Source: a virus. Taken from it: a stretch of 59,975 nucleotides of DNA. Below, piece by piece: positions 3,851-48,799 of the stretch. Under the pieces are notes generated by a model. That model was not told the DNA's origin, did not search any database, and saw only the letters and a program-made list of their open reading frames with translations. The DNA is taken from IMG/VR virus record IMGVR_UViG_3300034418_004786, positions 1 to 59,975 of that record, one strand, 5' to 3'. The position numbers and the translations under genes are program-made. Numbering within the stretch: position 1 is the stretch's first letter; each line of letters opens with the position of its first letter.

Positions 3851-3858
3851 CACCGATG

Positions 3859-4855: not shown

Positions 4856-4857
4856 AA

Positions 4858-8122: not shown

Positions 8123-8127
8123 TTACA

Positions 8128-10422: not shown

Positions 10423-10427
10423 TACAC

Positions 10428-12967: not shown

Positions 12968-12973
12968 TTCATC

Positions 12974-14038: not shown

Positions 14039-14039
14039 A

Positions 14040-17466: not shown

Positions 17467-17696
17467 TGCCTGTTGTTCCCTGTGCTGTTTGTGGCAAAAG
17501 GCACAAGAAAACCCCCAAGCGTTTGCGCCGTAGTCAAGAAACACCGAGCCTTTGTTGGAAATGCAATACCAATTTGCCCGATGAATACAGGTGCAAAGGA
17601 TTTTTAACAAGACAACGACGAAAATGTGAGCAAAGGGCTTTAGACAATGGTTATTGTGGTTATCATCAAGACCAATTCGGTGGTGAAGAAGAATGA
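17466..17696 (+). CDS. Cysteine-rich zinc-binding protein
   Basis: 76 aa, ATG 17466, 7 nt after AAGGAGG (ATG 17463 is 4 nt away). It has CAVCG, CWKCN, then C..C..C and H (RCKG, KCEQ, YCGYH), enough for two zinc sites, and a basic segment (KRHKKTPKRLRR). The last pattern resembles the short C-x(n)-C-x(n)-C-x-x-H motifs of small phage zinc fingers. Probable nucleic-acid binding; acidic end. Confidence 0.6.
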   Translation: MPVVPCAVCGKRHKKTPKRLRRSQETPSLCWKCNTNLPDEYRCKGFLTRQRRKCEQRALDNGYCGYHQDQFGGEEE

Positions 17697-18850: not shown

Positions 18851-19122
18851 CGGTCACGGCTGATGCGACCACCGCCCGCACCCAAGTCACGCCTCATGCG
18901 TGGTCTTGCACCACTCCCTGAGCCACGAACCTTGTTTCGCGCATACCTCGCTCGTGTTCGCTTCTCCTTGTTCTTTCGTGACACGCTATACGCCCTGCGT
19001 TTAGCCTGTCGTTCAGCACGACCTTCAGATGGGTTGCGGGTGTAGCCGTGAAATTTTCCTTTCAAGACTCCGAATCCGACAGCGAAGGCAAGTGCTTTAG
19101 CCTCGGCTTCGCTTTTCGCCAT
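18847..19122 (-). CDS. Small arginine-rich basic protein
   Basis: 91 aa from ATG 19122 (an upstream ATG at 19149 would add 9 residues). After an Ala-rich helix (AKSEAEAKALAFAVG) it is extremely basic, rich in Arg/Lys, with Gly/Ser-Arg stretches near the end. Such proteins bind nucleic acids; a role in DNA condensation in the virion is conceivable but unproven. Last gene of the late unit. It overlaps the zinc-ribbon gene by about 60 nt in another frame, which lowers confidence in the exact start. Confidence 0.5.
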   Translation of the reverse strand: MAKSEAEAKALAFAVGFGVLKGKFHGYTRNPSEGRAERQAKRRAYSVSRKNKEKRTRARYARNKVRGSGSGARPRMRRDLGAGGGRISRDR

Positions 19123-20419: not shown

Positions 20420-20760
20420 CACCTCACCTCCATCACCACATCCACACGAATTTCGGTGGTTTGGTTTTTGCTAATTGGCACAAACGATGCACGAAATGCG
20501 GGGTTGTCAAGGGGGGTTGCGCCATGCACAACGACTTCTTTCACATCACTCGCCGCAATCAATTGAGTGTCAAACAGGCCCGTCACCGAAACCGTTCTAT
20601 CGTCAATGCGTTGAACCGTAGGGGTGACTGAAAAGGCAACATTCCCTGCCCCTCCATCTCTTGTGGTAGCCCGACCACCCGAAGTCCCAAGACTCATTTG
20701 ACTCACGAGTGATTGGAGGTGTTCGGCTAACTTGGCTTTGATTTGGTCTAAAACGGGCAT
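20419..20760 (-). CDS. Small tail-region protein (113 aa)
   Basis: ATG 20760 after GAGGTGAAATA. An N-terminal helix (VLDQIKAKLAEHLQSLVSQ) is followed by a beta-rich region. It begins immediately after the stop of the 2946-aa gene and overlaps the next start. Probably a baseplate component; no family recognised. Confidence 0.5.
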   Translation of the reverse strand: MPVLDQIKAKLAEHLQSLVSQMSLGTSGGRATTRDGGAGNVAFSVTPTVQRIDDRTVSVTGLFDTQLIAASDVKEVVVHGATPLDNPAFRASFVPISKNQTTEIRVDVVMEVR

Positions 20761-23700: not shown

Positions 23701-26700
23701 GTCCATCGTGTGTCCTGCACCCATGATGGAGTGATTGGGAACACTTGGCCCACAGCCAAGTCGGAGTGTAGCGATACAGCCTTGGTGCTTGTCACCACAT
23801 AATCGCTATTTTCCCCCGTCATATATTCGCTGTGCGTTTCAACACTCAAACCCAAACGAGGTGCAACATCGGATTGCACTTGTCGGTGATCGGCAATTTC
23901 GTGAAGTGGGATGGGGAGTGTTCCACGCTCGGCTTCTCCCTTGTCTTTCATGTTGAGGTTTGTTCCCCAACCAACCGCAGGGAAATGTTGATTGTCGGTG
24001 TCACCGTTGATTTTGACATCAACGGGGTGTGCGTTAAGGTGCAGGTTGTTGCCTTTATGGTGGTAAAATTCACTTCCCACGCTTGCCCCAAATTCACTCG
24101 CTTGATACACGGCTTCAACAGAATTCGCCGCCTTTGTTCTGTCACCTGAGTGATGGTTCAAGCCGATGATAGGGTCTAACCCCATGTTCATTGATTTGGC
24201 TTGTAAAAATTTAGCCGATGAGCCTGTGATTGTGGCAAATTCTGTTCGGTGTGCATCCACTACACCCGATGGCATAGCCCTGTGCGATACCATGCCGAGT
24301 GTTTCATCTTGAAGCACCCGCCCCATGCCGACCCGTGTTTCAGCCTCAGTCCAAGGCGTGTTAGACAAGCGGTTGAAACCCTCACGCCCAATACCTTCGT
24401 TGGTGTGTTGGCTGATAACCATGCCAATAGGCACAGTGCGTTCAATCCCTGTGTATGTGCCGTCACCCCATGCCCAATCACCGCCTGTCGGCAAATCGTT
24501 CATGCTGTCGTGCTTCCCGCCATCAAAACGGGCTGACCGCAATATAGCATCCATTGAGGATGAGGTTTCAGCGGGGTCGCCCGCCAACATATTGAGAGCA
24601 TCCGAAGCACCCTTGAAACCAAAGGCTCGCACAGGCAATCGCCGTGACAAATCCACAGCGACCATTGGATTTTGCACCACCGTCATTTCATTCCACTCAT
24701 ACGAATTGGTGGTGTCCTTATCCAATACCCATTTCGTGATGGCTTTGCGTGGGTTGAGTCCGTCACCAATGCCTTCTCCACGAGAATAGCGGGTGCTTGC
24801 ACCCCTCAGCACAAAATGCTGACGCAATTCAAGCGTGCCGTGTGGCTCACGCAATCCTGTGTGTCCCATCAACACCGCACTCGCTGAACGCTGACCCCAA
24901 TTTGTGCCGTGTCCACCTGCGTTAAGTCCGTTGTAGCCGTATTGTTGTAGCCATTGAAATGCGTAAATGCGTTCAAAAGCCATTCCCTTATCCACAGAAT
25001 CCGTGTCGGTGGCGGGGGCATTACGCAAATACAATCCTCGCACTGATGGTTGATCCACAGCGTTAGGCATACCTGCTTCACGGTATCGGAATGTCATGTA
25101 TTGCTCTCGGCTCGTTCCAAGCAAAGCGGGGTGACTGTATTCAGCAAGCCATGTGCATAGGAAGGCATCGGGGATGGCGTTTGAATTGGTGTCACTTGAT
25201 GAAACCAACGCCAAGTCAGCGTGCGAATCCTCCGCATCAAAATCCCCACTGCTTGATGGGGACTCCACATTGGCGACAGGCACAGCCGACATATTCACCA
25301 TTTCAGGATCGTGAGCAATAAGTGGGGGAACGGTGGCTAATTCTGTTCCCACACGGGCGGTTCGCCAACCCGCAGGATGACCTGTCAAGGAATAATAGGT
25401 ATGCAACCCATCGGATGCCTCAAAGCCATTTTGAATCCATGTTGGGTTTGGTCGCCCTCCCATGAGCATATATTGCGAAAGCATGAAACCGTTCATGGCA
25501 AATTCTTCACCTGCGTTGTGCCTATTATTGACGGTTCGTGAGCCAACGGTGAGGGCAATTGGCCCGGAAGTTGCCGCACTTCCATACGGCCCAAAGACCG
25601 CAGAATTTTGACTGTAATAACCCGAAACCCACTGTGCTTGTTCCGTAGCACCCTCAACCTTCGTATGCAATTGACCGGGTGCAAATAGCAAATCAATTTG
25701 GTCGTGGGGCGTAGCACCGTCATACCTTCTCCAATTCGGCAACCCTGCGTTTTTGATTTCGCTCATTGGGAAGCCATCGGATGCAAACGACCCTGTATTG
25801 TAGGCTTCGCTCTTGACCTCCAAAGTGTCAAGGTAATAGACGGTGGCTGACGGTGGGTCTATGCCTCCATTGTAGGCTGATTGAAAGCCCCAATGCTTGT
25901 GTTCTGTTTCAGCCTCAAAGAGCAACGAATACGCCGAACCGTGTGAGCGATGCAATTGCCTTCGCAACGCCATAGGTGTGCCTCTTGTGGTTAATGGTGC
26001 AACAAAGGAGTGGCCTTGACGACCAAAACGAATGCGATGGTGGGGGTGGAGGTATGAACCGTCAGCCCCGTTGTTTGTGTCCAATAGCACAGAACCACGC
26101 TCAACATGGTCGCTAAGGCGGTGTGCCGCAAATAAGCGAGTCGTTCCGCTTGGCACGCCACCTGCGGTGGTGTTGAGCGTGAGTCCAAATTGACTCTCCA
26201 TTTTGTCGTGAATAATACGCACAGGGTGAAAGTGCAAAACCCTGTCGTGTGTGTCAAACGCTGTGACTTGCACATCCTTCAATGAAGATTCAGCATCACC
26301 CGCTAAGCCCGAAGTCGGTGCTGACAACCCACCCATGCCCCATGTCAAATTATTCCATGCTTGAACACGGTCATGCCCTGAACGCACGATGATATTGCCG
26401 GGTATTTCGTCTTGTGATGGGAGGTTGATTTCCAAATTGGGTTCAATTCCGCTTCCAACCGTTGAAGGAAGAGGTGTTTCTGTTCCCGTGTTAGGATTGA
26501 GGCGGGTCTGTTTGTAGGTGAAGTCTTTGATGACCGTTCCGAAAGGCGACCCCCCTTCTAAAATCAATTCCTGTCCTTTGTCATCAACGACTGAAATGCT
26601 GTCCCAAACCCGTTCTTCGTTAGGCACATATAGCCCACGAACACGCTCGGCGCTAACGGTTCTCGTGACACGATAAGGCCGACTCACATAGCCCAAAGAA

Positions 26701-29600
26701 CCCACGAAGGGGCTTGTGCTTGTGCTAATTGTCGTGTTTTCGGATTTCAACCCGTTTTTGACAACAGCCTTTGCTCTGTCTGTGGTGCTTTGTCGCATAT
26801 TGTTGAGTGTCGCATAATCACTTTCGGTGGCGTTTGTCATTGAACCGTATTTGCTCGCTATTTCATACCCATTCTCCAATGCAACCGACCAATCACCCGT
26901 CTTTTTGATTTTGTAAAGGGGCTGAGAATCCACCAAATCAATGGTAGTGGGAGAGGATAGGGTGATTGTGGGACAAGCCCGATAAAGCAGGGTATCGGTG
27001 GCTATGTCTTTGTCCAAATTGAGCCAATACATTCGTGAAAATGTGTATGAACCAAGTGTTGAAGTGACATAAGCACCACGGAACAAACGACCAAAAATTT
27101 CCGACACACTGTTCATCAACACATTGGGGTTGGGGGCATAGGTGTAGTCGCCAATCGTTCCACTGACCGCACCCAACGCTTCAGGAGAAGCGGTTGTCAC
27201 GCCATCAGCATTTGCGTCATAAACCTCAAGGGGAATGCCCAAATCAAAATCACTGCTCGTATATTCTATACCCGTTGGCTTGCCGTTATAGCGAATATCG
27301 CCACCGCCCGCAGGTGGTTGATCTATCACAATTATGTCACCCGCCACATAGCCTGAACCCGGTGCATTCATCCTTACCTTGATAATTGCACCGCTAAAGG
27401 TCACAATGTCCACTGTCATGCCTGTTCCCGAACCACCAATTGTATTCACGCCTATGGCATCAACATAGCCTGTTCCTGCGCTATTCAATTCAATGACTTC
27501 ATAATTCACTTTGCGAATGTAAATGACAGTCCCCGCAAAAAGAGCAATCGTCTGATTGTCCACCAATTCAATGGATGACCCATAGACATCAGCAACCGTT
27601 CCAATTTCAACATTGGTTGAAGTGACAACAACATCACCAACCGCAAATTCCCCACTCAATGCCGAGAACACCAAGTGATTGTGAGTCGTAGTTAATCCAA
27701 GTGATTTCCTGTGTAATTCATCATTTATGGCGAGTGACACTAACGGTGCTTCCTGCAATTTAATGGTGGTTGCATTCGGAACATTGTCAATAAGGCCGAC
27801 GAATTCACCACTTGGACTCCACACTTCTTGTCCCGCCGCAAATTTGGTGGTGGCATCCGTTCCTGTGACGGTTAAGGTTCTCACTGATACGCTTACGAAT
27901 AAAACACCCGTATTTTGAGTTGCACCCAATAATTCCAATCCTGTGGTTCGGCGGGCTGGCCCTAACGCTCGCAACCCCATAGAGTGAATACCCCTAACAC
28001 CATCAACCACGCCAACACTTTGTCCGTCTTTTGTGTAAATTGTATCACCAATTTCAAAGTGATCGCCAAAGGCTGTGTTTGGAGTCATAGCGTTAAATTG
28101 GGACACACCCGCACTCAATGTTGCGTTGGTGCTGACATAGCACTCCGTTTCTTTCAAAACAAATTCATCTAATTCTGTTCCGAATTCAACATCGTCAAGC
28201 AATAATTCATCATCGGCTAAAGCCGTTCTTTGATCGTTTAGTCCTGTCCATTGAAATGGGTCGGATGCCACTTCACCCATGATAACCGGGCCGTCAAAAG
28301 GCATATCAGGCGGGGGTAAATCGGGCAATACGCACGAATTCAATCCTTCAATGGAGAATCGGCTATACCCGTGTCCACTCAAAGCGGATGGTTGTGCGCC
28401 CCGTGATTCGTGCGTAATGTCGGGCAACCCCATGTTCCCACCATCCATTGGCTTGGCGGTGAGATACCACACGGGAAGTGGCGCACCAAGACCTTGAACG
28501 ATTGGGCCACCGTTTGCCGTTCCCCAATACCCACCGCCTGTCGGCGTGTCACTTTCCCATGACACTACGACAGTGTGCTGTTGTTCTGTTTCATTGTGGA
28601 TTGTCCATGTTGGTTCGGATCCCAACACACCATCAAAGTCATAGGGGGTGTTGTAGTCATAAACATTGAAAGCAATTTGGCCTGTTTGATTTAATGAGCC
28701 AAAATTTGAATCAGCAACCACCTCCCATGAATCGTAATACAGAATGTATTCGGTGGATGGGAAGGTTGCTGTCAATTTGCCCTTTTGTGGTATGTCGGTT
28801 GGCAAACGCACTGTCGGCGCGTTGTTGAGGGCTTCGCCAATGTATAACTCATCAAATGACATCAGCACCTTTCCAAGCCGAATTGGGTCACTGTTGCTCA
28901 AATCAGTCGCCAAATCCTCTTTCAAATATACCTTTGTGCCTCTCACTTCAAGGGCTGTTCCAACAAAACGACTGTTTGCACCTGCGGTGTATAACTTGTC
29001 ACCGGGATGGATAGTGCTGAGAACCAAGTCGTTGCCCGACGATTCTTTCAAGGTGATGTAATTTGCTGAACCCTTTGCTTGATCACCATTGGCTTCCCAC
29101 TGCAAAGAACCCCCTTCGCCCCCTGTCAAAAAGCCGAGAGGATTCCAATTTACACCTTCGTAATTTGCTCGCCCTGACATTGATTGATATTTGGCTCGCA
29201 AATATCGCCCCCGTGAATGCGACCCTGTTTGATACGCACGAGATGAATTGATAGCGGATGCAATCATCATCGCCGCCTCTTTTGATCCCAAATCATAGGT
29301 CAATGACGACGAGGCGGCACTCGCCGCATCACTCGCACGCTTCAAATCAATCACATAGAAATTTTCACCGTTGCTATATGTGCCAACAGAATCGTTTGCC
29401 AAATTGGTTCGCACCAAAAAGTGCATACCGAGAGCGTTGCCACCACCCGCCCAAGTGAAAGTGGTCGCATCTGTATATTCGGTGTCAGGATAAGTGAAAT
29501 GGAGGCTGAAATAGCCACTTGGGGGTCGTGCGTCATCACTTCCCATAGTGCGTGTGTCGGCAGGGTAATCCTGTCGCTTGAACGCACTCACCTCAGCCAT
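20760..29600 (-). CDS. Giant tail protein (2946 aa) with baseplate-hub-like C-terminus
   Basis: The largest gene of the window, uninterrupted over 8.8 kb. Regions: beta-rich N-terminus (1-450); three tandem copies or half-copies of a module with signature F-x-x-G-D-x-V (about 484-697); a GSGYVAGD-type repeat (about 720-770); a long unrecognised middle; a region (about 2480-2790) with features of phage hub proteins of gpD/gp27 type (DALRDLSRIDGYQLSL, NQVIVEGDEI, then KPGEIIRVDF); and a final module copy (about 2854-2929) sharing GVLI ... DGVNATERF with the neighbouring 1940-aa protein. It likely forms the tail tip and contributes to host binding. The hub call is pattern-based. Confidence 0.65.
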   Translation of the reverse strand: MAEVSAFKRQDYPADTRTMGSDDARPPSGYFSLHFTYPDTEYTDATTFTWAGGGNALGMHFLVRTNLANDSVGTYSNGENFYVIDLKRASDAASAASSSLTYDLGSKEAAMMIASAINSSRAYQTGSHSRGRYLRAKYQSMSGRANYEGVNWNPLGFLTGGEGGSLQWEANGDQAKGSANYITLKESSGNDLVLSTIHPGDKLYTAGANSRFVGTALEVRGTKVYLKEDLATDLSNSDPIRLGKVLMSFDELYIGEALNNAPTVRLPTDIPQKGKLTATFPSTEYILYYDSWEVVADSNFGSLNQTGQIAFNVYDYNTPYDFDGVLGSEPTWTIHNETEQQHTVVVSWESDTPTGGGYWGTANGGPIVQGLGAPLPVWYLTAKPMDGGNMGLPDITHESRGAQPSALSGHGYSRFSIEGLNSCVLPDLPPPDMPFDGPVIMGEVASDPFQWTGLNDQRTALADDELLLDDVEFGTELDEFVLKETECYVSTNATLSAGVSQFNAMTPNTAFGDHFEIGDTIYTKDGQSVGVVDGVRGIHSMGLRALGPARRTTGLELLGATQNTGVLFVSVSVRTLTVTGTDATTKFAAGQEVWSPSGEFVGLIDNVPNATTIKLQEAPLVSLAINDELHRKSLGLTTTHNHLVFSALSGEFAVGDVVVTSTNVEIGTVADVYGSSIELVDNQTIALFAGTVIYIRKVNYEVIELNSAGTGYVDAIGVNTIGGSGTGMTVDIVTFSGAIIKVRMNAPGSGYVAGDIIVIDQPPAGGGDIRYNGKPTGIEYTSSDFDLGIPLEVYDANADGVTTASPEALGAVSGTIGDYTYAPNPNVLMNSVSEIFGRLFRGAYVTSTLGSYTFSRMYWLNLDKDIATDTLLYRACPTITLSSPTTIDLVDSQPLYKIKKTGDWSVALENGYEIASKYGSMTNATESDYATLNNMRQSTTDRAKAVVKNGLKSENTTISTSTSPFVGSLGYVSRPYRVTRTVSAERVRGLYVPNEERVWDSISVVDDKGQELILEGGSPFGTVIKDFTYKQTRLNPNTGTETPLPSTVGSGIEPNLEINLPSQDEIPGNIIVRSGHDRVQAWNNLTWGMGGLSAPTSGLAGDAESSLKDVQVTAFDTHDRVLHFHPVRIIHDKMESQFGLTLNTTAGGVPSGTTRLFAAHRLSDHVERGSVLLDTNNGADGSYLHPHHRIRFGRQGHSFVAPLTTRGTPMALRRQLHRSHGSAYSLLFEAETEHKHWGFQSAYNGGIDPPSATVYYLDTLEVKSEAYNTGSFASDGFPMSEIKNAGLPNWRRYDGATPHDQIDLLFAPGQLHTKVEGATEQAQWVSGYYSQNSAVFGPYGSAATSGPIALTVGSRTVNNRHNAGEEFAMNGFMLSQYMLMGGRPNPTWIQNGFEASDGLHTYYSLTGHPAGWRTARVGTELATVPPLIAHDPEMVNMSAVPVANVESPSSSGDFDAEDSHADLALVSSSDTNSNAIPDAFLCTWLAEYSHPALLGTSREQYMTFRYREAGMPNAVDQPSVRGLYLRNAPATDTDSVDKGMAFERIYAFQWLQQYGYNGLNAGGHGTNWGQRSASAVLMGHTGLREPHGTLELRQHFVLRGASTRYSRGEGIGDGLNPRKAITKWVLDKDTTNSYEWNEMTVVQNPMVAVDLSRRLPVRAFGFKGASDALNMLAGDPAETSSSMDAILRSARFDGGKHDSMNDLPTGGDWAWGDGTYTGIERTVPIGMVISQHTNEGIGREGFNRLSNTPWTEAETRVGMGRVLQDETLGMVSHRAMPSGVVDAHRTEFATITGSSAKFLQAKSMNMGLDPIIGLNHHSGDRTKAANSVEAVYQASEFGASVGSEFYHHKGNNLHLNAHPVDVKINGDTDNQHFPAVGWGTNLNMKDKGEAERGTLPIPLHEIADHRQVQSDVAPRLGLSVETHSEYMTGENSDYVVTSTKAVSLHSDLAVGQVFPITPSWVQDTRWTKYGGSEGSITTDASRPDETYGGQSNPNQKVAKPKWSLNENMDLASVSNPFSDDILQANGVGVRDHWAVRGSADLPAWGGVFILRKTWLERPENTDALRSKQGGKNAAIKSQVAQPVRKYADYIVRMVRPLKVFGYTTKNDSDGNDMNQDGWLLGPYSTVTQAGSKDQPYTRDKRYGMFETTTTSQIGDIQGISSPYDSAPTIEWPDANNRDVVWHLIPSANMLQHFKADASRKDAEGRIVPLVEARYSQSTHAGGGEYISQTETVYATDDTVVVNPYLKRDKDANAVVKQPSTAMLALGAKAVIKFDAKSASPSKIVVDDATSFAQSGVLVIIGLTGQITYTSRTHNTFDGLTLTFQCASADLTGYTVRAGKNTGSAVSKIENIAPTSLGLVVLPSLVDNAVSVGKLLSDKWDATTSDDSAIINTNMGYRGIGHYNPSDFFMLSAQTFVLNDGQNTGLISYKRNAGTGGMSKVYVDGTEMIPSRFPPYLIDAMNQKWRIAKAQNNEGDGDFYDTFLTFKNLTENSLSASGMEINSVRLGHFMGVGLRSTDAALLLMKDIIKSIPGIDLEKFRVFLEQKATDAGVYADYSSAHHSTEVARQAFLFAHPNLRDAMLHSHHFISRKTRGIGIMDALRDLSRIDGYQLSLSEEGLLIYSPNIFIDMGRRVGTSSGPRNISVSQMLEMANQVIVEGDEIAINETVRASVKDLERMKRMGGVGDDEGVERTLKTRVLGVKERSVALRLAKGLLRRTEQGSALIRVEGLIKCSDIKPGEIIRVDFTAEAIKGEFVVFEVFNDYNTGLTDIVMGQYEKGIEGLLADLQTSTSTTSDDNATRTDEQIDITLNAPIQVISAHRVMTRFVNGTRLLIGGRWRGEPTTNQLGVIGVRGGDTGVLINNGGGYATSTTTMTVDGVNATERFAQHDAVLNANHEVIGYINSVTATTITLKAGSLVAVSDNERLRVSSSRQLPIGHSKSRFYEVK
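20815..21040 (-). repeat. C-terminal module copy in the 2946-aa protein
   Basis: Encodes TGVLINNGGGY, then TMTVDGVNATERF, VIGYINSVTATTITL and a closing NERL. It is the same module as in the 1940-aa protein, here placed near the C-terminus after the hub-like region. Confidence 0.6.
27710..27913 (-). repeat. Module copy in the 2946-aa protein
   Basis: Encodes TGVL followed by LTVTGTDATTKF, AGQEVWSPSGEFVGLIDNV and TTIKL. It shares the (L/V)TVD-x-x-DATTxF-x-x-G-D/Q-x-V-x-x-x-x-G-x-x-(I/V)G signature with copies in the 1940-aa protein. Weaker copies flank it on both sides (about 27510-27700 and 27960-28150). Confidence 0.6.
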
Positions 29601-29601: not shown

Positions 29602-32600
29602 TCAATCCCACACCGTTAGAGCATTATACAATTCCGTCACTTCGTCAGCGGTAAAAGCCTTTTTCCATAGAGCAATATCAGCAAGACCGCCTTTGAAATA
29701 AATGGGGTCTGTGTTGTTTGATGTTCCACTGTGATGTCGCCCGTAAAAATATGTCCCCGATACAGTGTAAGTGTGCAAAGCAGTGGCGATAGTGAGCATA
29801 TTGGTGTTCCTCCCATAAAATCCACTTGAAAGGACTGTGCCTTTCTGCAAATCGTCATTGTTGTTCAAAGCGACTATGTTTTTGGTTGTTAGGGTGATTG
29901 CGGTTGCCGTCAAAGAGGCGACGACCCCAATAACATTCCCACTTGGGTCAAACACTGCATCACCGATGCTAAATTGGGTGGTTGCATCAACCGTATCAAC
30001 GGCAATAGTGACATTTTCGCCCGCTGTGTAGCCACCTGATTTGTCCACAAGGACACCCGATGCTGTCACATGAGGAACACCAATGGCGGTTGGCAAATGT
30101 GGACTGTTCCCTGCCGTTCCGTTGCGGTATGATGACGAATCAATGTTCCCTAATTGTGTCACACTTGATGCTGAAGCACTCAATTCTTGAACACCATTCA
30201 CAAACACAGAAGCGGTTGGGTATGTTCCTGTTCTCGCCACCACAACATGATGCCATGCGTCTTTGGGCAAAGGTGCGAGAAGCGTAATCCTGTAATCCGA
30301 TTGGCTTCCCAAAGCCTGTGCTGTTCTCACCAAAATAATTACATCCATCATGTTTGGGTCAATTCCATTTTCTTTGGTTTCAATGCCCACGCCAAATGTC
30401 CCGTTGTTCGTGTCAATGCCTTGAATGACAGGCCCATTTCCATAGGCTTCGCTTGTCCACGAACCTGTGTTGGGTTTAGCCGAGAACAAAAATGACACCG
30501 ACCAATCGTCATTGACGGCATCAATGATAGGAACACGCAATTGTGGGCTTTGACCCATCCCTGCGGATTGTTTGTGAAGGGATATGGCGGCGTTATTCGC
30601 TGTCGCTAAGTCAATTCCTTTTGATTCGGGATCAACGCTAATGGGTGCATCCACCCCATCAATAGCCGATGCTGAAAAATTGCCGTAGGCGAGCAATTTG
30701 CGACCAAAGAGGGTTTCAAGAACCAATTCTTTTCCGTCTGTTCCGTGATTTGTGCTGAATAGCCCACCTTCATTCAAGCGTGCATAAAACAAGCAATCGT
30801 TGTCCATCGTATGTGCTAAATTGTCAGCAACGCCCGATGAAACGAGAGTGTATTTTCCATGCAATCCACGATATGTGTTTTCTTTGACGGTATCGCTATT
30901 CTTCAATTTGGTGAAATCCAATACGGCGGCGGATGTTTGAACCTCTTGAAGATTTTGAAAACCACTATACCCCGTTGGGCCTTGAGAATAATGGTGAGTG
31001 TAAAAGTCCGAATAATCGTTGTCTGTTCCATCGCTGATGTCAAAGACCGTTCCCGTGTGTCCACCACCAAAGAACAGAATACCGTGTGCATCAGGCAAAG
31101 GATAGACGATTTTGATGACCGCCTCTTTGCTATTGCCTTCGCGATCCACAAACAATTCAGTCCACTTCTTTGTCAAGTCGTCATCAAGGGGTTTCACCGT
31201 TCCCAAGAAACAGCACGCACCGACTCCATTTACACGGCACTGCGTTGCCCCAATGTTCGCCACGATATTTTCAAAAGTCCCTATCAAAGCATCATCAACG
31301 ACAATGTAGCCGAGATTTAAAGACGAGGTGTTTTGTGATAAACGGCTAATGACATCCAACGCTTTTCTTTCAACAGCAATATGCGGGAACGAATTAACAT
31401 CATAAACAGGCCAAAAATCACCGTCTTTTTGCCGAGCATTTTTGACTGATTTAATGATGAATTCACTTCCGATTCCGTTGTAGGTTCGCAAATTACCACC
31501 ACCATCCTCCACCCGCCCGTGAACACCGCCTTGAAATGTAGTGATCGGAATGTGTGTTTCACCATCCATGCCCAATGGCAAAGGGGCGGCAAAGGATGAA
31601 GCCTGATATGACCGACTGTTTGTAGCCAACAAACCACCGTGTCCTATTGCTTGAATAGGGCGATAAGGATAAGGACTGTTGTTGTGAAGCCATAGGGCGA
31701 AATTGCGACCTGTTGCACCCGGAATAGTGCTGTGTATAACAATAGATATGCCCACTTCTCCATCACGGCTCTCCACTTCTTGTCCAATAAATGCACGCAC
31801 ATACCCCATGTGTGTTCCTGTATCAAGACTTGACACTGTTTCTGTTCCATCGTTTTCGGTGAATAATTGTGGTGGATTGAAGGCACTTCCACCGTTGGCA
31901 TTTTTTGCATTGGGATGACCTGCTTGATTGATGAGTCGGATGATTTCATTGACACCTTCTTTGAAATTGCTGACATTTTTTGAATTGGCAACCGTTCCAA
32001 AGTTTATATGGAGTGGGCGAACATGGTCTAAGGTTTCATCATTACGCTTGCCTTTTAGAGCAAAATGTCCTGTTCGGCACTCAACAGGTGGTTGAAGCGG
32101 GAAGTCGTCATCACCAAACAAATGATTGCCGGGGTCAAACGAAAATCCTTCCATTGTTGGCCCTTTGTTAATGAACAGCCGTGAGTCGTCTGTTGGGTCA
32201 ATGCAAACCGCTGTTTTGTTGTCGGAGGTTGAACGCCCCAAACACAGCGCATAGCGCATTGGGTTAATGAACGCTTGAGCCATTGTGCTATTGCTCGTTC
32301 CAACCGTAGCGGAGAAGCCCGTGAGTGCCTTAACTGTGCCGTTGTAATGAAAATCATCATCCGATAGCCAACAGCCCATCACAACGGGCAAACCCACAAT
32401 GAATTGGTCTTGCACTTCACTCAATGTTGCGTCTTTATCAGCCCAATCGTGCCACGAATCAAAATATAGACGATGGCTCAATCCTTCAATTGACACTTTA
32501 TACACACGGACACGGATTCCGCCCGTGTCGTTTATCACGCCTTCTCCAATCGTGACAGCGAATCCATTGTCGCCGTTTGGTGTCGCACCCGCCGCCCCAA

Positions 32601-35424
32601 ACGACCAATATGGCGAACCCAACGGTGTGTTGTTCACTAACGCTTCGGGTATGCCTGTTCTAAGCGTAATGTTTGTTGATGTCACGCTTGACACAATGCC
32701 AAGGAGTGAACCTGTGTTGTGGTTATACACTTCATCACCGGGTTTGAATTTGGTGGTAGCATCAACCGTATCAACCGTAAGGCTCGTTTGACCGATGGGA
32801 TGACCACCCAAAGCATTGATTAACACACCTGTGCTTGTAGTGGTGTGATTCGGAACATCAATTCCACTTTCTTGAATAAACGGTTGGACATCATCAACCT
32901 CAATGTAAGCATCCGTGTAGGCTGAACCTCCTGTGGCGGTGGTTTCACCGCCTGAATATGTTCCTAATTTCAAATACGACGACGCGTTTTCTCGCATGAA
33001 ACGAATGATTGTTCGCCCCGCAACCATGCTGTAATTGTGGACTTTGAAGGATGAAACCTCCCCTCGCAACCCCCAATCAATTGCCCACCGATTCTCATAA
33101 TTTTGCATTTGTGGGCGATTAACAGCCGACATGGTGCAATCAACAACGATTTCCATTGACTTATCGCTCGGTAGTGGACTCCTTCGGTATTCGCTCTCAG
33201 GCAAAATTTGCTCAATGTCATAGAACATTGAGGGGAACAACGGCAATTCAACCAATGCTCTCGTTGATGCGTAATAGGTGGAGGTTTGCCTGTCGTTTCG
33301 CACCGATGGGTTGTTTGTCCCAATCACCTTATCCTTCCACACAGGCAATTTGCTGTGTTCTGTTCGCACAGGGGCAACATCAATACCGCCTTGCCCCAAA
33401 CCACCGAGTGTGATGCTCACGGTTGGCGATCCCAAATCACCGATTTCTTTGATTGGGAAACCTTCATTCAAATCAAAGTCCCTTTCACTTATTTTGTCGG
33501 TTATGTCAATCAATTGTGAACGACCACGAAGGGCTACACCCCCGCTTGACATATCGCCACTCACAGGATTGATTTCTTCAACGCGCCCTCGCATCAAAGT
33601 CATTTCAATGGTGCAATTGTGATATGAATTGACTCCGTTTTGCTGTGTGTAAATGGTGTTGAGGGTCTTTGTCCTGTTCTTGTTTGATGGATGAATTAGC
33701 AACAAATGACGATCAGCCTCAACGATATTATCAATAATGTCAAATTGTTCGTAATTGACAGGTTGCATGAATGGATTGTCATTGTCGGTAATCGTGTCTT
33801 TGTTTTTGTTTGATGATTGAATGGTGACGGTATGGTAAATGCTGTCATTTTTGTCAGTGATTGAGCGTGTGTTGCTGATGGCGATTGGAGAACCATACCC
33901 ATCGTCACGGATGCGGTTGCCCGCAATTGTTTCTTGAATGACGGTGTGAGCGCAATTTTCAACATTGACGAATGGCGAAATTGCCAAATCCCCTGTGGGA
34001 TTTGCCCGCAACGAGTGGTTGGTTAAACCTGATTGAAAATCCTTTGAGGGTATGGTGATGAGTCCACCCGGTGCGTGCAGGGTGAGAGCATCCCATGTAG
34101 GCGGTGAACCAAATTGAACGGCTGTGTAAGGTCGCCTAATCCAATCCAAAATAGACCGATATACAGGGTAGCCATTGGAGTTATCAACGAACACCGTATT
34201 GGTATCGGGCATGGTTTTTTCAACAATCAACCAACCTTTCTTTGACATGGTGTTGATACCGTCAATGTCGTTTCGGTATGTTTGAGCGTGGGATGCGGGG
34301 GTGAACCACGAATTGTCGCCTTTCCACCCCGCAACCAATTCACCTGTTGGATCAATAGCGTTATAATAGATGAGGATTTGTGGTGGCCCTCCTGCATCAC
34401 GGAGGGCTTGGGGGGTTTCCAACACAGCAATTCGGCTCTCCTTCTCAGGAGTGACATGGCGAACATAATTTTCGTTGGTTGGTTTGGTTGGGTCAATCAT
34501 GTCAAACAAAGCATCCTCATCGGTGTCCAAACCTTTCAATGAGAACGGGCGAATGTCCTCCACAGCAATAGCCACCATTGTGTCCTGTGATGACGACACT
34601 ACATTCCCATAGGTCGTGTCAATGAAAGAATTGCCACCTTGAGCGACAATAGCGTGCTTGACAATGCTTGTGCCGACTGTTGTATATGTGCTGACTCGTG
34701 ATGAGGTTTGCACATTCAGTGCTTCGCCAACAAACACACGCTCGGTCACTTTGACCTTTTCATTTTGAGTCATCAATGTTTTCGCATACGGATCTTCATA
34801 TTGGCTTTCAAATTGGTCTGCTAACCCTTGAACAGTGCGTTTAACAGACTCAATTTTTGGTTGAGGCAATTGCTTCAAAAAGAAGTGACCTTCCACACGA
34901 TTGTAGGTTGTCAAACCACACATACCTGCAATATCCGTTGTTGGCTCAATGACATTACCTGATACCGATGTAAATTCATCACCCGTCGCAGGTGGGTTGC
35001 CACTTCCGAAAATTGTGATGGATGGCACACCGTTGAATGCGGCGGTGATGTCACCTGACGAGAGGATGGTTGAACCTCCGTTTGCATGAAGAAAGAAATA
35101 ATCATCCAAGTCACTAACCGTGTGCGATGGTGGTTGGGGTGGGGCTAAAAAATTGGCACTAAAATTAGCCAACATAGAGGCTTGTAATGCCGCACCCGTC
35201 GCCAACCCTTTGGTGACAAGCCAACGGATTGTGTGATAAGCCGAAATTGCCGCCTCGTTTTGAAAAATTTCAATCGGTGGGCCTGAATAGCCGGGGAGAA
35301 TTGGCACAAGCGTAATCGGCCCACCTTGAGCCAAATTGTTCACGGCATTCGTCAATTCCGTAGTCGCTGTTCCCGAATCGGTAGCGATAGCCGTGAGGAT
35401 GAGTGTTTCTGTCAATTCAGTCAT
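29602..35424 (-). CDS. Large tail/receptor-binding protein (1940 aa) with LamG-like domain
   Basis: ATG 35424 follows GGTGTGATGA. The first 1500 residues are beta-rich and unrecognised. About 1620-1940 look like a concanavalin A/LamG fold: WSVSFLFSAKP, DAWHHVVVARTGT, SVFVNGVQ and a final FKGGLADIALWKKAFTADEV are typical strand signatures of carbohydrate-binding LamG domains. A copy of the approximately 75-residue module (about 1788-1863) is inserted inside this domain, and another lies at about 860-936. Probable role: binding of host surface glycans. It sits between two other large adsorption genes. Confidence 0.65.
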   Translation of the reverse strand: MTELTETLILTAIATDSGTATTELTNAVNNLAQGGPITLVPILPGYSGPPIEIFQNEAAISAYHTIRWLVTKGLATGAALQASMLANFSANFLAPPQPPSHTVSDLDDYFFLHANGGSTILSSGDITAAFNGVPSITIFGSGNPPATGDEFTSVSGNVIEPTTDIAGMCGLTTYNRVEGHFFLKQLPQPKIESVKRTVQGLADQFESQYEDPYAKTLMTQNEKVKVTERVFVGEALNVQTSSRVSTYTTVGTSIVKHAIVAQGGNSFIDTTYGNVVSSSQDTMVAIAVEDIRPFSLKGLDTDEDALFDMIDPTKPTNENYVRHVTPEKESRIAVLETPQALRDAGGPPQILIYYNAIDPTGELVAGWKGDNSWFTPASHAQTYRNDIDGINTMSKKGWLIVEKTMPDTNTVFVDNSNGYPVYRSILDWIRRPYTAVQFGSPPTWDALTLHAPGGLITIPSKDFQSGLTNHSLRANPTGDLAISPFVNVENCAHTVIQETIAGNRIRDDGYGSPIAISNTRSITDKNDSIYHTVTIQSSNKNKDTITDNDNPFMQPVNYEQFDIIDNIVEADRHLLLIHPSNKNRTKTLNTIYTQQNGVNSYHNCTIEMTLMRGRVEEINPVSGDMSSGGVALRGRSQLIDITDKISERDFDLNEGFPIKEIGDLGSPTVSITLGGLGQGGIDVAPVRTEHSKLPVWKDKVIGTNNPSVRNDRQTSTYYASTRALVELPLFPSMFYDIEQILPESEYRRSPLPSDKSMEIVVDCTMSAVNRPQMQNYENRWAIDWGLRGEVSSFKVHNYSMVAGRTIIRFMRENASSYLKLGTYSGGETTATGGSAYTDAYIEVDDVQPFIQESGIDVPNHTTTSTGVLINALGGHPIGQTSLTVDTVDATTKFKPGDEVYNHNTGSLLGIVSSVTSTNITLRTGIPEALVNNTPLGSPYWSFGAAGATPNGDNGFAVTIGEGVINDTGGIRVRVYKVSIEGLSHRLYFDSWHDWADKDATLSEVQDQFIVGLPVVMGCWLSDDDFHYNGTVKALTGFSATVGTSNSTMAQAFINPMRYALCLGRSTSDNKTAVCIDPTDDSRLFINKGPTMEGFSFDPGNHLFGDDDFPLQPPVECRTGHFALKGKRNDETLDHVRPLHINFGTVANSKNVSNFKEGVNEIIRLINQAGHPNAKNANGGSAFNPPQLFTENDGTETVSSLDTGTHMGYVRAFIGQEVESRDGEVGISIVIHSTIPGATGRNFALWLHNNSPYPYRPIQAIGHGGLLATNSRSYQASSFAAPLPLGMDGETHIPITTFQGGVHGRVEDGGGNLRTYNGIGSEFIIKSVKNARQKDGDFWPVYDVNSFPHIAVERKALDVISRLSQNTSSLNLGYIVVDDALIGTFENIVANIGATQCRVNGVGACCFLGTVKPLDDDLTKKWTELFVDREGNSKEAVIKIVYPLPDAHGILFFGGGHTGTVFDISDGTDNDYSDFYTHHYSQGPTGYSGFQNLQEVQTSAAVLDFTKLKNSDTVKENTYRGLHGKYTLVSSGVADNLAHTMDNDCLFYARLNEGGLFSTNHGTDGKELVLETLFGRKLLAYGNFSASAIDGVDAPISVDPESKGIDLATANNAAISLHKQSAGMGQSPQLRVPIIDAVNDDWSVSFLFSAKPNTGSWTSEAYGNGPVIQGIDTNNGTFGVGIETKENGIDPNMMDVIILVRTAQALGSQSDYRITLLAPLPKDAWHHVVVARTGTYPTASVFVNGVQELSASASSVTQLGNIDSSSYRNGTAGNSPHLPTAIGVPHVTASGVLVDKSGGYTAGENVTIAVDTVDATTQFSIGDAVFDPSGNVIGVVASLTATAITLTTKNIVALNNNDDLQKGTVLSSGFYGRNTNMLTIATALHTYTVSGTYFYGRHHSGTSNNTDPIYFKGGLADIALWKKAFTADEVTELYNALTVWD
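29838..30062 (-). repeat. Module copy inserted in the LamG-like domain
   Basis: Encodes SGVLVDKSGGY, VDTVDATTQFSIGDAVF, GNVIGVVASLTATAITL and NNNDDL. It interrupts the LamG-like fold between the conserved strands and its final beta strand. At DNA level a 17-nt stretch (29984-30000) is identical to one in the other copy of this gene. Confidence 0.65.
32620..32845 (-). repeat. Second module copy in the 1940-aa protein
   Basis: Encodes TGVLINALGG, LTVDTVDATTKFKPGDEVY, LLGIVSSVTSTNITL and LVNNTPL. The 17-nt sequence at 32759-32775 is identical to 29984-30000, showing recent common origin of the two copies. Confidence 0.65.
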
Positions 35425-39336: not shown

Positions 39337-40911
39337 TCAAACACCCCTGCTAAATCCACCACTACGGCTTCGGCTTCTAAACGCCTTTGACACTTCATCG
39401 CTTATGGCTCTCGCCAATTTTTGTGGATCGCCACTCGCACCATTGACGGTGATATTGACATTGTTCGTGCCTCCACCACCACCCATGCCTTCAATGGTGA
39501 CGGGGATTGAACGCCCGTCAGGGAGAGGCACAACGGCTTCTGTTCCGTGTAAGGCAACGGGATAGCCTGATGTCGGCCCTTTGACAACACCGCCATCGGA
39601 GAAGCCAAGCAAACCACCAACAGCACCACCGATGCCACTCGCAACACTGCTGATGCCACCGACCACCACATCAATTGCATCAATGATTGGTTGAAGATAG
39701 TCCATAATGGCATCAACAATGTTTGCGAAATGTCCTTTGATACCTTCCCAAACGCCCTTCCATGTGTCACCGATGGATTTGAAAATTTTCGCCGCACCAT
39801 CCAAATCACCACGCAAAAGAGCAAGTGCGGCACGAATGACCTTGATGACGGTGTTCACCACTCCCATGACAACAGCGAGAATTATCCCCCACCACGAAAC
39901 CACCATTTTTGCATACGGTGCGATGAAGGGCCACAGCACTTGGATAATTTTCATCACTACGGCAATAATTACGCCCGTCACAACGATGATGGTTGAAACG
40001 ATTTCAAAGACAAGTGCGATAATGTTTCCTATAAATTCAAAAATCCCCGAATTCTGCAACCAATCCACCAAGAATTGCCACAAATCACGAATGCTTTGAA
40101 AGAAATCGCTGATTGCCGAATCCCCAAATAGTGCGGTGATGAACGACCATAGTGTTCCGAGTGCTGTGAATATAGACGAAATGCCGTCAATGACCGTTTG
40201 AATTGCACCTGATTCAGCCAAGGCTGTGTAAAGTGAAGTCACAAGCGTCACGCTCGTCAATACGCCTTCGGAGATGACGGTGAACAGGATGCCCAATGTC
40301 GTCATTATCCCGCCAAAAATTTCCTCAGCATTGAAAGGCATAGAAACGCTCGTAGTCAGCGTTTCCCATAGGGCTAACAATTCGTCAATGATTTTTTGTC
40401 CGTTTTCAAACACGGGTGCAAACAAGCCCCCACCGCCTTCACCACTCAACACACCCTTCAAGACATCAACAGCGGTTTGCACAGCACCAAACACGGTGCT
40501 AATAATCGGCATTTCTTCCAACCAAGCACGAAGCGAACCCCCTCCTTGATCCAATGCGGCGGTAAAGAGCATCATCACCCCAAGAATCGCCATCACCATG
40601 CCGACAATGGGAAAAATCGCCATTGTCAATCCCTTGAACAAACCAAGAACCAATGTCAGCGGTATAGCCAATCCTTTGAGGGCTTTTGTCAAAACACCTC
40701 CTGTTTTCGTTTGTTGCTTAAACGAGCCTGTCACGCTATCCGTAATCATTTGGACTTTGGTGTAGGATTTGTAAATCGGCCCTAAAGTCTTGAGAAGCAC
40801 TTGGTGCTGATTGGGCAAACGGATAATTTGGTCTTGGTATTTGTTGAGGGTTTGAATGACATCAAGAAGGGCGGCATCCATGCCCATGATTTGCTTGTTG
40901 CCCCTCGCCAT
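39337..40911 (-). CDS. Tape measure protein
   Basis: 524 aa from ATG 40911. It has several strongly hydrophobic segments (for example IPLTLVLGLFKGLTMAIF and IIVVTGVIIAVVMKII) and a C-terminal signature FSDGGVVKGPTSGYPVALHG followed by TEAVVPLPDG, typical of tape measure proteins (GGIV ... GxEAVIPL). It sets tail length and may form a channel during DNA ejection. At roughly 1.5 angstrom per residue it would specify a tail near 80 nm, short for the size of the adsorption proteins. It lies directly after the chaperone frameshift pair, as in siphoviruses. Confidence 0.88.
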   Translation of the reverse strand: MARGNKQIMGMDAALLDVIQTLNKYQDQIIRLPNQHQVLLKTLGPIYKSYTKVQMITDSVTGSFKQQTKTGGVLTKALKGLAIPLTLVLGLFKGLTMAIFPIVGMVMAILGVMMLFTAALDQGGGSLRAWLEEMPIISTVFGAVQTAVDVLKGVLSGEGGGGLFAPVFENGQKIIDELLALWETLTTSVSMPFNAEEIFGGIMTTLGILFTVISEGVLTSVTLVTSLYTALAESGAIQTVIDGISSIFTALGTLWSFITALFGDSAISDFFQSIRDLWQFLVDWLQNSGIFEFIGNIIALVFEIVSTIIVVTGVIIAVVMKIIQVLWPFIAPYAKMVVSWWGIILAVVMGVVNTVIKVIRAALALLRGDLDGAAKIFKSIGDTWKGVWEGIKGHFANIVDAIMDYLQPIIDAIDVVVGGISSVASGIGGAVGGLLGFSDGGVVKGPTSGYPVALHGTEAVVPLPDGRSIPVTIEGMGGGGGTNNVNITVNGASGDPQKLARAISDEVSKAFRSRSRSGGFSRGV

Positions 40912-41596
40912 CACTTCATCCCCGCATTCATCCGTTCAAAGAAGTCTATGTCGCTTGTGGTCTTGACAGACCTCCCCTTCGTTTGACCCACAGCGTTCTC
41001 ACGCTTCAATTTGTCCATTTCTTTTGCCTCTATTTCCTTGAATGCGACCATCGTGTAATAGTCCAATATCACACGCTCAGGGGGCAACCCATCCCATTGA
41101 TGAGGCGAACAATTGAAGAAACGACCCAAAAAGAAAACGGGCATTTGGTTAATCAGCACAGGCAATTTGTGCTGAGATACGGGGATTTCACCCTCTCCGT
41201 TCCATGTTGTAAAGGCACGAACATCATCAAGGGTTATTCCAAAGGGCCTGATGGGTTGCTCATGCTTTCGGTGAGCGAATCAAACGAGGGCAGGATTTTC
41301 GCCAATTCTTGACCGACTTCGGGTCGGATGTTGAGCAATTGACTCTTTGTCAATTCGGGTTCAGTCCTATCAATGCAATTCACGAGCAAGAATTTCCAAA
41401 AGCCACCAAAATCAATGGTTGGTTGAGGTGTGCCATCCTCACCTTGTTTCAACGAAACGAATTTTGTGAGAGCGTTTTGCCTGTCAATCCACGACAGATC
41501 CTTAACCCACACGGTCATTTCACCGAATGGGGTGTCAATCGTGTGTTCTGTTGCGTCTGTTGATGCAACCAAATCATTGGGGTTGGCTTTCTTCAT
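40911..41596 (-). CDS. Tail assembly chaperone, long -1 frameshift product (gpG-T-like)
   Basis: Predicted fusion of 228 aa made when ribosomes slip -1 at 41246-41240. The downstream frame is open from 41279, has no ribosome site, and its only candidate starts are internal (TTG 41165). Read through the slip it continues as a coherent sequence (GITLDDVRAF, then helical LPPERVILDYYTMVAFKEIE). Length and place match gpG-T of lambda-like phages: after the tail tube and before the tape measure. The extension would recruit tail tube subunits to the tape measure. The slip itself is inferred from sequence. Confidence 0.8.
41234..41596 (-). CDS. Tail assembly chaperone, short product (gpG-like)
   Basis: 120 aa from ATG 41596, 7 nt after AAGGTGA; the longer frame upstream overlaps the SAP-domain gene and is rejected. 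The protein is an alpha-rich chaperone candidate (WVKDLSWIDRQNALTKFV, FWKFLLVNCID) with the length and location of gpG. It stops with TAA four codons after the slip codons. It would coat the tape measure protein with the frameshifted form during tail assembly. Confidence 0.8.
   Translation of the reverse strand: MKKANPNDLVASTDATEHTIDTPFGEMTVWVKDLSWIDRQNALTKFVSLKQGEDGTPQPTIDFGGFWKFLLVNCIDRTEPELTKSQLLNIRPEVGQELAKILPSFDSLTESMSNPSGPLE
41240..41246 (-). promoter_or_regulatory. -1 programmed ribosomal frameshift heptamer CCCTTTG
   Basis: On the minus strand the zero frame reads GGC CCT TTG GAA TAA. C CCT TTG fits the X XXY YYZ rule exactly (XXX = CCC, YYY = TTT). A -1 slip changes the reading to CCC TTT GGA ATA ACC and enters the open frame of the extension. 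It lies 4 nt before the zero-frame stop, the usual spot in tail chaperone genes. Confidence 0.8.
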
Positions 41597-41939
41597 CTGT
41601 TTCACCTTCACTGACGGTTTCGGCTTCACCACTATCGTCAGCCTCAAGGCGAGCGATTAACTCAGCCTTTGTGCCTGATGTTGAAAGCCCACGCTGACTA
41701 CAAAGTGTCATCAATTCAGTCTTGTTCATTGACTCGTAGTCGGTGGGTGTTTCTTCAACAGGTGCGGGCGTGGATAGTGGTTCAGGGACAGGTGGTGCGG
41801 GAGGGGTGATGTCCACCGTTGCCTCCACATTTGACGAGGATAGGTTTCCTGCATTGACAATCACGCCATCAGGCATGACAGTCCAATCAAGAGAAGTCTT
41901 TCGCCCGTCAATAATCACAAACCCTGTTAGCCTTACCAT
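41574..41939 (-). CDS. SAP-domain protein in the tail module
   Basis: 121 aa from ATG 41939 (TTG 41948 is an alternative). A beta-rich N-terminus (FVIIDGRKTSLDWTVMPDG) is joined by a proline-rich linker to a SAP motif, NKTELMTLCSQRGLSTSG followed by KAELIARLE, which usually binds DNA or, in phages, structural partners. The tail is acidic. Its place between tail tube and chaperone is unusual for a DNA-binding motif. SAP-like tails occur in other tailed-virus virion proteins, where their function is unclear. Confidence 0.65.
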   Translation of the reverse strand: MVRLTGFVIIDGRKTSLDWTVMPDGVIVNAGNLSSSNVEATVDITPPAPPVPEPLSTPAPVEETPTDYESMNKTELMTLCSQRGLSTSGTKAELIARLEADDSGEAETVSEGETDEESQPQ

Positions 41940-41976
41940 CTGTATCAACCCTCACATCTGTCGCATATAATCCTTT

Positions 41977-47409: not shown

Positions 47410-48003
47410 TCAGTTATACACGATGACAACAAAAATTGAACCCGTGTCCGAAGCCCACGCTGTTCCTGTCGTCAATTTGATTTGCACTTTACCACAAACC
47501 ATACCTGTCCACGGTGCGACTTCATCAACTAATGTAGCCGTTCCCCCACTGCTGAGAGTCTTGGGGGCTTCGGGGGAAGATGAATGCCCACTCACACCTG
47601 CACGAACAACAAGAGAATTCGCCTGTTGTGCGGGTGCGGCTTGAATTGCCGCCCCCTCAGCCGTTTGAAATTTGTAGGGGCGTGGAGAGGCGGTGGTGTA
47701 GTCAAGGTTGCTGATTTGCTCGTGATAGGATAGTGGCAAAGCCGATCCTGCACCGTCATCTAAATCAGCATAAAGCAATTGAAATGTTCCACCATGCACT
47801 TGGGCGTTGGTGTTTGTTGTCAATTTGCTACGGGTTGCGTCAAGGATAATGTTGTTCACTTGGCCGTTAAGCACAACATCAACCGTCACCGTAGTGTTGC
47901 CTGACAAATCGTCTTGAGTGAATTCATAGACGAGGCGATTGACACGAGTGCGACCTGCGTATCGTGCTTCACCGTCATAGAGCGTGGCTTTGTATTCGGC
48001 CAT
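47410..48003 (-). CDS. Head-region structural protein (197 aa)
   Basis: ATG 48003 after GGAGGTGACGAG. Beta-rich throughout (LVYEFTQDDLSGNTTVTVDV, FQLLYADLDDG, ends SIFVVIVYN) with a Pro/Ala/Gln-rich middle. Probably a decoration or minor head protein, by its place among capsid genes. No family recognised. Confidence 0.5.
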   Translation of the reverse strand: MAEYKATLYDGEARYAGRTRVNRLVYEFTQDDLSGNTTVTVDVVLNGQVNNIILDATRSKLTTNTNAQVHGGTFQLLYADLDDGAGSALPLSYHEQISNLDYTTASPRPYKFQTAEGAAIQAAPAQQANSLVVRAGVSGHSSSPEAPKTLSSGGTATLVDEVAPWTGMVCGKVQIKLTTGTAWASDTGSIFVVIVYN

Positions 48004-48410
48004 CACTCGTCACCTCCGCTTGATGCGGAGGCTCTAACGGTTTCAATGATGGTGGATTTGTTTGCACGAGCGTCAATTTCAACGCCATTTGCTTCGCACC
48101 ATTCAACCATTTTTGCCTTTGTCCATGTTTCATCAAAGGACTCCGATTCTTCTGTGATTTGTGGTGCTTCTTCCACAACAGGCTCAGGGGTTGGCTCAAC
48201 AGCCTCAGCCATTTGCTTTGTCTTTTCAGCAACGACTGTTTCTTCAAACCCACTTACAGACCACTGAGGGAAGTTATCACCCTTGAATCGTTCAGCCAAG
48301 TGGCGAGGGATGTCCTCACGAATGCTTTGCCGACTGAAACCGTATGTCACTCCACCTTCGGTGAATTCCACATAGGGTCTGTCGCCCACATATTGAACGG
48401 TGATCGTCAA
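48003..48410 (-). CDS. Head-region protein with C-terminal HeH/SAP-like domain
   Basis: 135 aa from TTG 48410, 6-7 nt after GGGGG; an upstream TTG at 48428 overlaps the neighbour. N-terminus beta-rich (ITVQYVGDRPYVEFTEGG), then an acidic Pro/Glu linker and a C-terminal helix-extended-helix-like segment (TKAKMVEWCEANGVEIDARA, NKSTIIETVRA). Phage head proteins with HeH/LEM-like tails are known between capsid and adaptor genes. It probably binds DNA or the capsid. Confidence 0.55.
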   Translation of the reverse strand: MTITVQYVGDRPYVEFTEGGVTYGFSRQSIREDIPRHLAERFKGDNFPQWSVSGFEETVVAEKTKQMAEAVEPTPEPVVEEAPQITEESESFDETWTKAKMVEWCEANGVEIDARANKSTIIETVRASASSGGDE

Positions 48411-48424
48411 AAGACGACCCCCAA

Positions 48425-48799
48425 TCAAGCATAAATCAATGCTACGATGCGGTGGGTGTCGCCCGCTGTTCCTGCGGCGGAAGTGAAAGCGACAGTGCTT
48501 CCCGATGAACGCACGAGGGTAGGGGCTTCAAAGCCACCGCTTTGGTTCGTGACACTCAACACACTGAGAACACTCGTGCCTGACACACCCGTAATTCCCG
48601 TGTCGGTCAAGTCAAAGGTGGTAGCGGCGGATTGTGCCGTCACAACAACATCAACGACCAACAAGTGCATCGCACCTGCGGCGGCGTTTGAACCGATTGG
48701 GGATTGAAGCCAATCGGTTGATGTGTTATCCGAACCCGACCACATACGCTGTGAAAGGACGACTGAACTGCTTGCTTCTGTGATATTTACATTTGCCAT
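48425..48799 (-). CDS. Putative head decoration protein (124 aa)
   Basis: ATG 48799 after AAGGAG. Small, neutral, rich in Ser/Thr/Ala/Gly and beta strands (MHLLVVDVVVTAQ, TVAFTSAAGTAGDTHRIVAL). It directly follows the major capsid gene, where capsid-cementing proteins are often encoded. A promoter-like element lies 21-29 nt upstream, hinting at strong separate expression. Confidence 0.5.
   Translation of the reverse strand: MANVNITEASSSVVLSQRMWSGSDNTSTDWLQSPIGSNAAAGAMHLLVVDVVVTAQSAATTFDLTDTGITGVSGTSVLSVLSVTNQSGGFEAPTLVRSSGSTVAFTSAAGTAGDTHRIVALIYA

Follow-up and report, generated by a model that had tools for sequence, protein, structure and literature searches.

On the minus strand of a virus record of 59,975 bases, the whole of which was the window analyzed here, a short open reading frame (ORF) terminates within a second frame that continues to the tape measure gene. 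This arrangement raises the question of whether the two frames encode separate proteins or whether a fraction of the ribosomes changes frame and synthesizes one long tail assembly chaperone. An initial annotation had proposed a programmed −1 frameshift, and we examined this proposal using the coordinates, the relatives of the locus, the predicted protein folds, and the RNA flanking the putative slip site.

Architecture of the tail assembly chaperone locus

The exact C CCT TTG heptamer reported in the initial annotation was confirmed to the base, and relative to frame 0 it reads as X XXY YYZ (GGC CCT TTG GAA TAA, with CCCTTTG at 41246–41240) (Table 1). It had been placed four codons before the end of the short ORF; the coordinates were correct, and the wording is refined here, in that just a single sense codon (GAA) lies between the heptamer and the 0-frame stop. 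The −1 frame is open from position 41279 and, after the slip, extends over another 109 codons until it meets a stop at 40911. The sizes of 120 and 228 aa, which had been likened to those of lambda gpG/gpG-T, also follow from the coordinates, the slip product consisting of 119 + 109 = 228 aa. The ATG of the tape measure gene overlaps the stop of the extension (TGATG), and the chaperone ORFs are located directly upstream of that gene. The first ATG, GTG, or TTG in the −1 frame of the record's own copy occurs 75 nt into the extension, and an identical copy of the chaperone locus was present in two other records (L002 and L003).

Table 1. Features of the chaperone locus and their positions in the 59,975-base window
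Feature	Position	Strand	Remarks
0-frame ORF, gpG-like tail assembly chaperone, 120 aa	41234–41596	−	ATG at 41596, last base of the stop at 41234; GAAGGTGA lies 5′ of the ATG; assigned from coordinates, predicted fold, and hhalign match to the HVTV-1 TAC
Slippery heptamer C CCT TTG	41240–41246	−	Invariant in 63 of 63 distinct relatives
0-frame stop TAA	41234–41236	−	One sense codon 3′ of the heptamer; position common to all 63 distinct relatives
−1-frame extension (gpT-like part), 109 codons plus stop	40911–41240	−	No start codon 5′ of the slip; predicted to be all-helical
Candidate downstream hairpin	41190–41234	−	Outer arms ACCCTT (41234–41229) and GAGGGT (41195–41190); p 0.42 for L063 (synonymous null)
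Tape measure protein gene	39337–40911	−	PHROG tape measure families, best E 4.5e-13

The chaperone's upstream neighbor (41574–41948, minus strand) encodes a SAP domain (Pfam E 4.4e-11), and a second ORF (48003–48428, minus strand) appeared SAP-like by eye only; DNA-binding SAP domains may recur within the structural module. Downstream of the tail genes are two very large ORFs on the minus strand, at 20760–29600 (2946 aa) and 29602–35424 (1940 aa), and the tape measure protein is short, at about 524 aa counted from its ATG. Given the two giant ORFs and the short tape measure protein, the tail is possibly short and bears a large tip or fibre structure.

Conservation of the putative slip site among related viruses

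Relatives were collected in several scans. Those with the record's own proteins as the query yielded 8 and 9 loci, and those with small alignments 23 and 9 loci. Because one pattern set built from a small alignment contained residues adjacent to the slip, the decisive scans used patterns located away from it; they gave 43 and 80 loci for the 0-frame product (the second being the best 80 of 81) and 62 and 65 loci for the extension. Of the 250 hits in these four scans, 249 were analyzed (123/123 for the 0-frame product and 126/127 for the extension), and the one extension hit left out (L028) shares its contig with an analyzed hit (L090). By our own reading of the listings, the 249 hits represent 81 contigs, and they comprise 63 distinct sequences of up to 450 bases, many of them close kin. 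A scan of genome contigs returned 65 candidate stretches, none of which was confirmed.

All 249 analyzed hits, with no exception, contained CCCTTTG ten bases before the 0-frame stop together with an open −1 frame, and CCCTTTGG was present in all 63 distinct sequences. The alignment that the initial annotation had called for thus found the heptamer and both frames kept in every relative analyzed, and none of these relatives has an extension frame interrupted by a stop close to the junction or lacks the slippery sequence. The 0-frame stop was TAA in 57, TGA in 4, and TAG in 2 of the distinct sequences, and the extension measured 109–126 codons in the 62 that are not cut by a contig end. Pairwise protein identity fell to 0.34 for the 0-frame product and 0.30 for the extension (medians, 0.47 and 0.44, respectively).

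On the strand of the chaperone, the 59,975 bases contain 139 XXXYYYZ heptamers (Y = A/T), and by our own arithmetic approximately 0.04 heptamers in the right phase are expected by chance inside the 46-base overlap of one sequence taken alone. Because the heptamer is conserved across the relatives, a chance origin is negligible. At the slip site, Pro was encoded by CCT and Leu by TTG in 63 of 63 sequences, whereas in the control columns, four other near-invariant frame-0 Pro residues used four codons each and an invariant Leu used six. The codon preceding the site encoded seven residues with eight codons, yet it ended in C in all 50 distinct sequences compared, as against 1115 of 4950 codons elsewhere. 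The extension shows near-invariant residues from its first codon onward. The −1-frame Gly codon after the slip used all four third bases, and the codon following it always created the 0-frame stop (L043–L290); in 17 sequences of the record's group, the Ile codon of the extension next to this Gly was always ATA.

Separate initiation, dual coding, and sequence error as alternatives

A constraint on both frames could produce the same codon pattern, and we therefore tested whether the −1 frame is translatable at the heptamer. Between the upstream −1-frame stop and the heptamer, no ATG, GTG, or TTG was found in any of the 63 distinct sequences, a count covering these three start codons; upstream of the slip, the lack of a start that the initial annotation had noted for the −1 frame thus holds for every relative analyzed. 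In four relatives (L229, L245, L252, and L265), a −1-frame stop immediately abuts the heptamer on its 5′ side, and the frame change in these sequences must therefore occur on the heptamer or the next codon, within a window of ten bases. If both frames were translated and constrained at this place, with Pro-Leu in frame 0 and Pro-Phe-Gly in frame −1, the genetic code would nearly dictate CCCTTTG, and dual coding alone might fix the heptamer. However, CCC TTT in the −1 frame could not be translated without an upstream −1 start, the abutting stops in the four sequences contradict such translation, and the eleven upstream −1-frame peptides examined are dissimilar. Because the −1 frame has no upstream ATG, GTG, or TTG, we rejected dual coding as the sole cause and consider it exceedingly improbable.

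The same survey bears on the idea that the extension is a separate protein made from an internal start, or by termination and reinitiation near the TAA, with the heptamer being incidental. The overlap of the 0-frame stop with the beginning of the extension is a layout met in coupled genes, and 36 of the 63 sequences contain at least one ATG, GTG, or TTG within the extension after a ribosome-site-like stretch (duplex energy ≤ −5). Nevertheless, the first such codon downstream is scattered, its place within the extension ranging over codons 1–111 and the commonest position occurring in only 19/63 sequences, although near-invariant residues are present from codon 1; moreover, separate initiation would leave both CCCTTTG and the C-ending preceding codon unexplained. 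Separate initiation was rejected on the survey of start codons in the 63 sequences, and we regard it as very unlikely. Indels do occur in metagenomic contigs, and a sequencing or assembly indel, or the decay of a gene, could split one long ORF; here, however, the identical frame change occurs at the identical place in 63 distinct sequences from 81 contigs, and the record's copy recurs unchanged in L002 and L003. A sequencing error is refuted by these relatives, and the probability of this explanation is practically nil. Taken together with the observed gene anatomy, its conservation, the missing start codons, and the chaperone-like predicted fold, we conclude that this is very probably a tail assembly chaperone gene of the G/G-T type decoded by −1 programmed ribosomal frameshifting.

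Predicted identity of the two protein parts

Searches of Pfam and PHROG with the 0-frame and extension ORFs gave no significant match, and the identity of the products was examined by structure prediction and profile comparison. The model of the 0-frame product (pLDDT 86.8) had five fold matches in BFVD at E ≤ 0.001, of which two were tail assembly chaperones, two were uncharacterised, and one was unnamed. The two informatively named matches were the chaperones of Haloarcula hispanica tailed virus 2 and Bacillus phage 019DV002, and FS-gp41 of phage Mu appeared lower in the list (E 0.062). The Haloarcula hispanica tailed virus 2 protein (UniProt R4TKL2) resembled the model in fold (Foldseek E 7.1e-06, TM 0.62 on the query) but shared only 19% sequence identity. 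A Foldseek search of the model against the PDB returned nothing at E ≤ 0.001; in a second look, the best solved structure was YqbN (PDB 3klu), a member of an XkdN-like tail chaperone family, with a middling Z of 5.7 over 89 residues (rmsd 3.6) and 8% identity. The 0-frame profile aligned with the annotated HVTV-1 chaperone over 107 columns (hhalign probability 78, E 1.9e-5). These models suggest that the 0-frame product has a predicted fold like that of tail assembly chaperones, and the identity proposed in the initial annotation is supported by this fold, the HVTV-1 profile match, and the tape measure gene that follows.

The model of the extension is all-helical (pLDDT 81.3). It had no fold match in BFVD at E ≤ 0.001, its best Z in a second look against the PDB was 3.7, and its profile gave a probability of 3.4 and no alignment with the HVTV-1 extension.

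RNA elements flanking the putative slip site

The 60 bases beginning 5 nt after the heptamer had a mean folding energy of −14.7 kcal/mol, compared with −11.0 after synonymous recoding, and folding in this window reached p ≤ 0.05 in 40% of the 63 sequences, compared with 2–18% in 13 control windows (seven later ones, the first of which overlap the test window, and six upstream). Against dinucleotide shuffles, the mean z was −1.48 downstream and −0.22, −0.55, and −0.30 in three control windows. The 5′ arm usually begins at or just after the 0-frame stop; however, the best pairing register differs between groups, and a single consensus hairpin for the whole family is therefore ruled out. When one register was tested in 27 of the 63 sequences, chosen to include most of the record's group and nine others that mostly fit it, 73.3% of the cells paired, compared with 65.1% in shuffles, a result that the choice of rows favours. 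There were 12 double-change cells, compared with 5.3 in shuffles and 3–6 in slid versions. For these chosen rows, neither the share of paired cells nor the number of double-change cells was matched in any of 500 shuffles, whereas the number of pairs with any double change was not unusual (94 of 500), and the two inner pairs each failed in 14 of 23 distinct rows.

With the sequences assigned to groups A–F by sequence motif rather than by tree, the hairpin was significant against the synonymous null in 9/11 sequences of group E, 5/8 of F, 4/8 of D, and 1/3 of C, but at p ≤ 0.05 in only 2/13 of group B (YEDLV) and 1/20 of group A, to which the record belongs; p was 0.42 for the record's own sequence type (L063). 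In 17 group A sequences, the arm codons were nearly constant (ACC 17/17, CTT 16/17, and GGA 17/17), whereas nearby Asp, Phe, and Gly codons vary; over the whole group A extension, codon usage was uniform for 8 of 37 invariant residues, of which three lie at a distance from the arms. Because the hairpin is significant in most sequences of groups E and F and in half of D, but in only 1/20 of group A, we graded it by group: a downstream hairpin is likely in several groups and is plausible but unproven in the record's own sequence.

Upstream of the heptamer, a Shine-Dalgarno-like stretch (duplex energy ≤ −5 within 24 nt, calculated with a consensus rRNA tail and not that of the host) occurred in 55/63 relatives and was absent from the record's type (−1.9). 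Because its strength (−8.00) was equalled under the synonymous-codon null (−7.95), the encoded residues explain it, and we do not claim it as a selected stimulator.

Proposed decoding mechanism

Most ribosomes would stay in frame 0 across CCT-TTG and terminate at the TAA after one further codon, releasing the short chaperone of 120 codons. A minority would re-pair from CCU-UUG to CCC-UUU on C CCU UUG, enter the −1 frame, and add 109 codons, giving a 228-aa fusion whose reading frame immediately precedes the tape measure gene. In many relatives, slippage is probably promoted by a hairpin on the 3′ side of the heptamer, and the purine-rich Shine-Dalgarno-like stretch may help in 55 of the 63, though not in the record's own sequence. 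For lambda, PMC5009743 describes the tape measure protein as the binding partner of the short form and the tail tube subunit as that of the T part; by analogy, the short chaperone here would cover the tape measure protein, and tail tube subunits would be brought in by the fusion. We infer from the sequence comparisons that slippage occurs, as well as its rate and the division of labour between the two forms.

Several observations count against frameshifting. Neither fold nor profile comparison revealed a relative of the extension, the hairpin lacks significance in the record's own sequence type and in most of group B, and the Shine-Dalgarno-like stretch is no stronger than under the synonymous null. 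In addition, PMC8211752 gives the usual X XXY YYZ rule as having a Z other than G, and CCCTTTG breaks this rule, although according to PMC10885494, PRFect found no limit on Z among the chaperone genes annotated in phages. In sequences with an evident hairpin, the 0-frame stop falls within the spacer or at the base of the stem. It is conceivable, though in our judgment rather unlikely, that this stop is a working part of the frameshift signal and not merely the end of the short ORF; termination could then clear non-shifted ribosomes before these unwind the hairpin, setting the ratio of short to long product. If true, the heptamer, stop, and hairpin would together form an archaeal frameshift cassette.

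Viral lineage and comparison with known systems

The proposal that the DNA belongs to an archaeal virus was supported by the MCP, for which 9/9 matching phage-collection records have archaeal hosts (8 Haloarcula), and by the portal, for which 11/11 do (8 Haloarcula), duplicates being included in both counts. PolB was uninformative about the host: tblastn matched 178 records, mostly phages of bacteria (87 Synechococcus phages), and the first matches listed were mostly Halorubrum viruses with 22–25% identity. The genome also encodes a clamp-loader-like AAA protein and an ERCC4-type nuclease. Genes of the replication type occupy the plus strand (1–19000) and those for the virion the minus strand (19000–59975), and a split of this kind is described for magroviruses in two family profiles. 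Judged from these sequence matches, the record is consistent with a virus of archaea that is related to Druskaviridae and perhaps also to magroviruses.

PMC5009743 and PMC8211752 report −1 frameshifting of the chaperone gene for the haloarchaeal viruses HVTV-1 and HCTV-1/2/5. Experimental support for frameshifting in Archaea as a whole is sparse, PMC8211752 counting one demonstrated cellular gene and reports in a few haloarchaeal viruses. The locus would thus stand as an archaeal example of a phage mechanism, as initially suggested, but not as the first of its kind; given these reports and the joined-gene annotations of HVTV-1 and HCTV-1, we count the mechanism as known. The Aoguangviridae profile, in which a TAC is listed on the map of a magrovirus genome, says nothing of frameshifting, the sections of PMC8651126 consulted make no mention of tail assembly chaperones, and a literature search of partial coverage returned no report of a chaperone frameshift in magroviruses or Poseidoniales viruses. 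When the fusion of one relative was compared by tblastn with 50,697 phage records, nothing significant emerged (four records at E 5–7). As far as these literature searches show, what is new is the family, the invariant C_CCU_UUG, and the fixed stop. The family, made up of archaeal viruses represented here by contigs alone, allows comparison in depth, with the slip site pinned to a few bases. Gene callers are likely to miss or split the long chaperone in its genomes. The invariant C_CCU_UUG differs from the sites reported for haloarchaeal viruses and is directly testable on archaeal ribosomes.

In lambda G/G-T, too, a slip close to the 3′ end of the chaperone gene leads into a −1 extension; the heptamer differs, and in the present family the stop is fixed one codon after the slip and the virus is archaeal. 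HVTV-1 and HCTV-1 (Druskaviridae) are the nearest annotated relatives by MCP and portal, their records annotate joined chaperone genes upstream of the tape measure gene, and these genes have a −1-frame extension together with an X XXY YYZ heptamer. In contrast to the locus described here, their heptamers are GGGAAAG and GGGAAAC, the 0-frame stop occurs nine codons later, and in HCTV-1 two ORFs lie between the chaperone and the tape measure gene.
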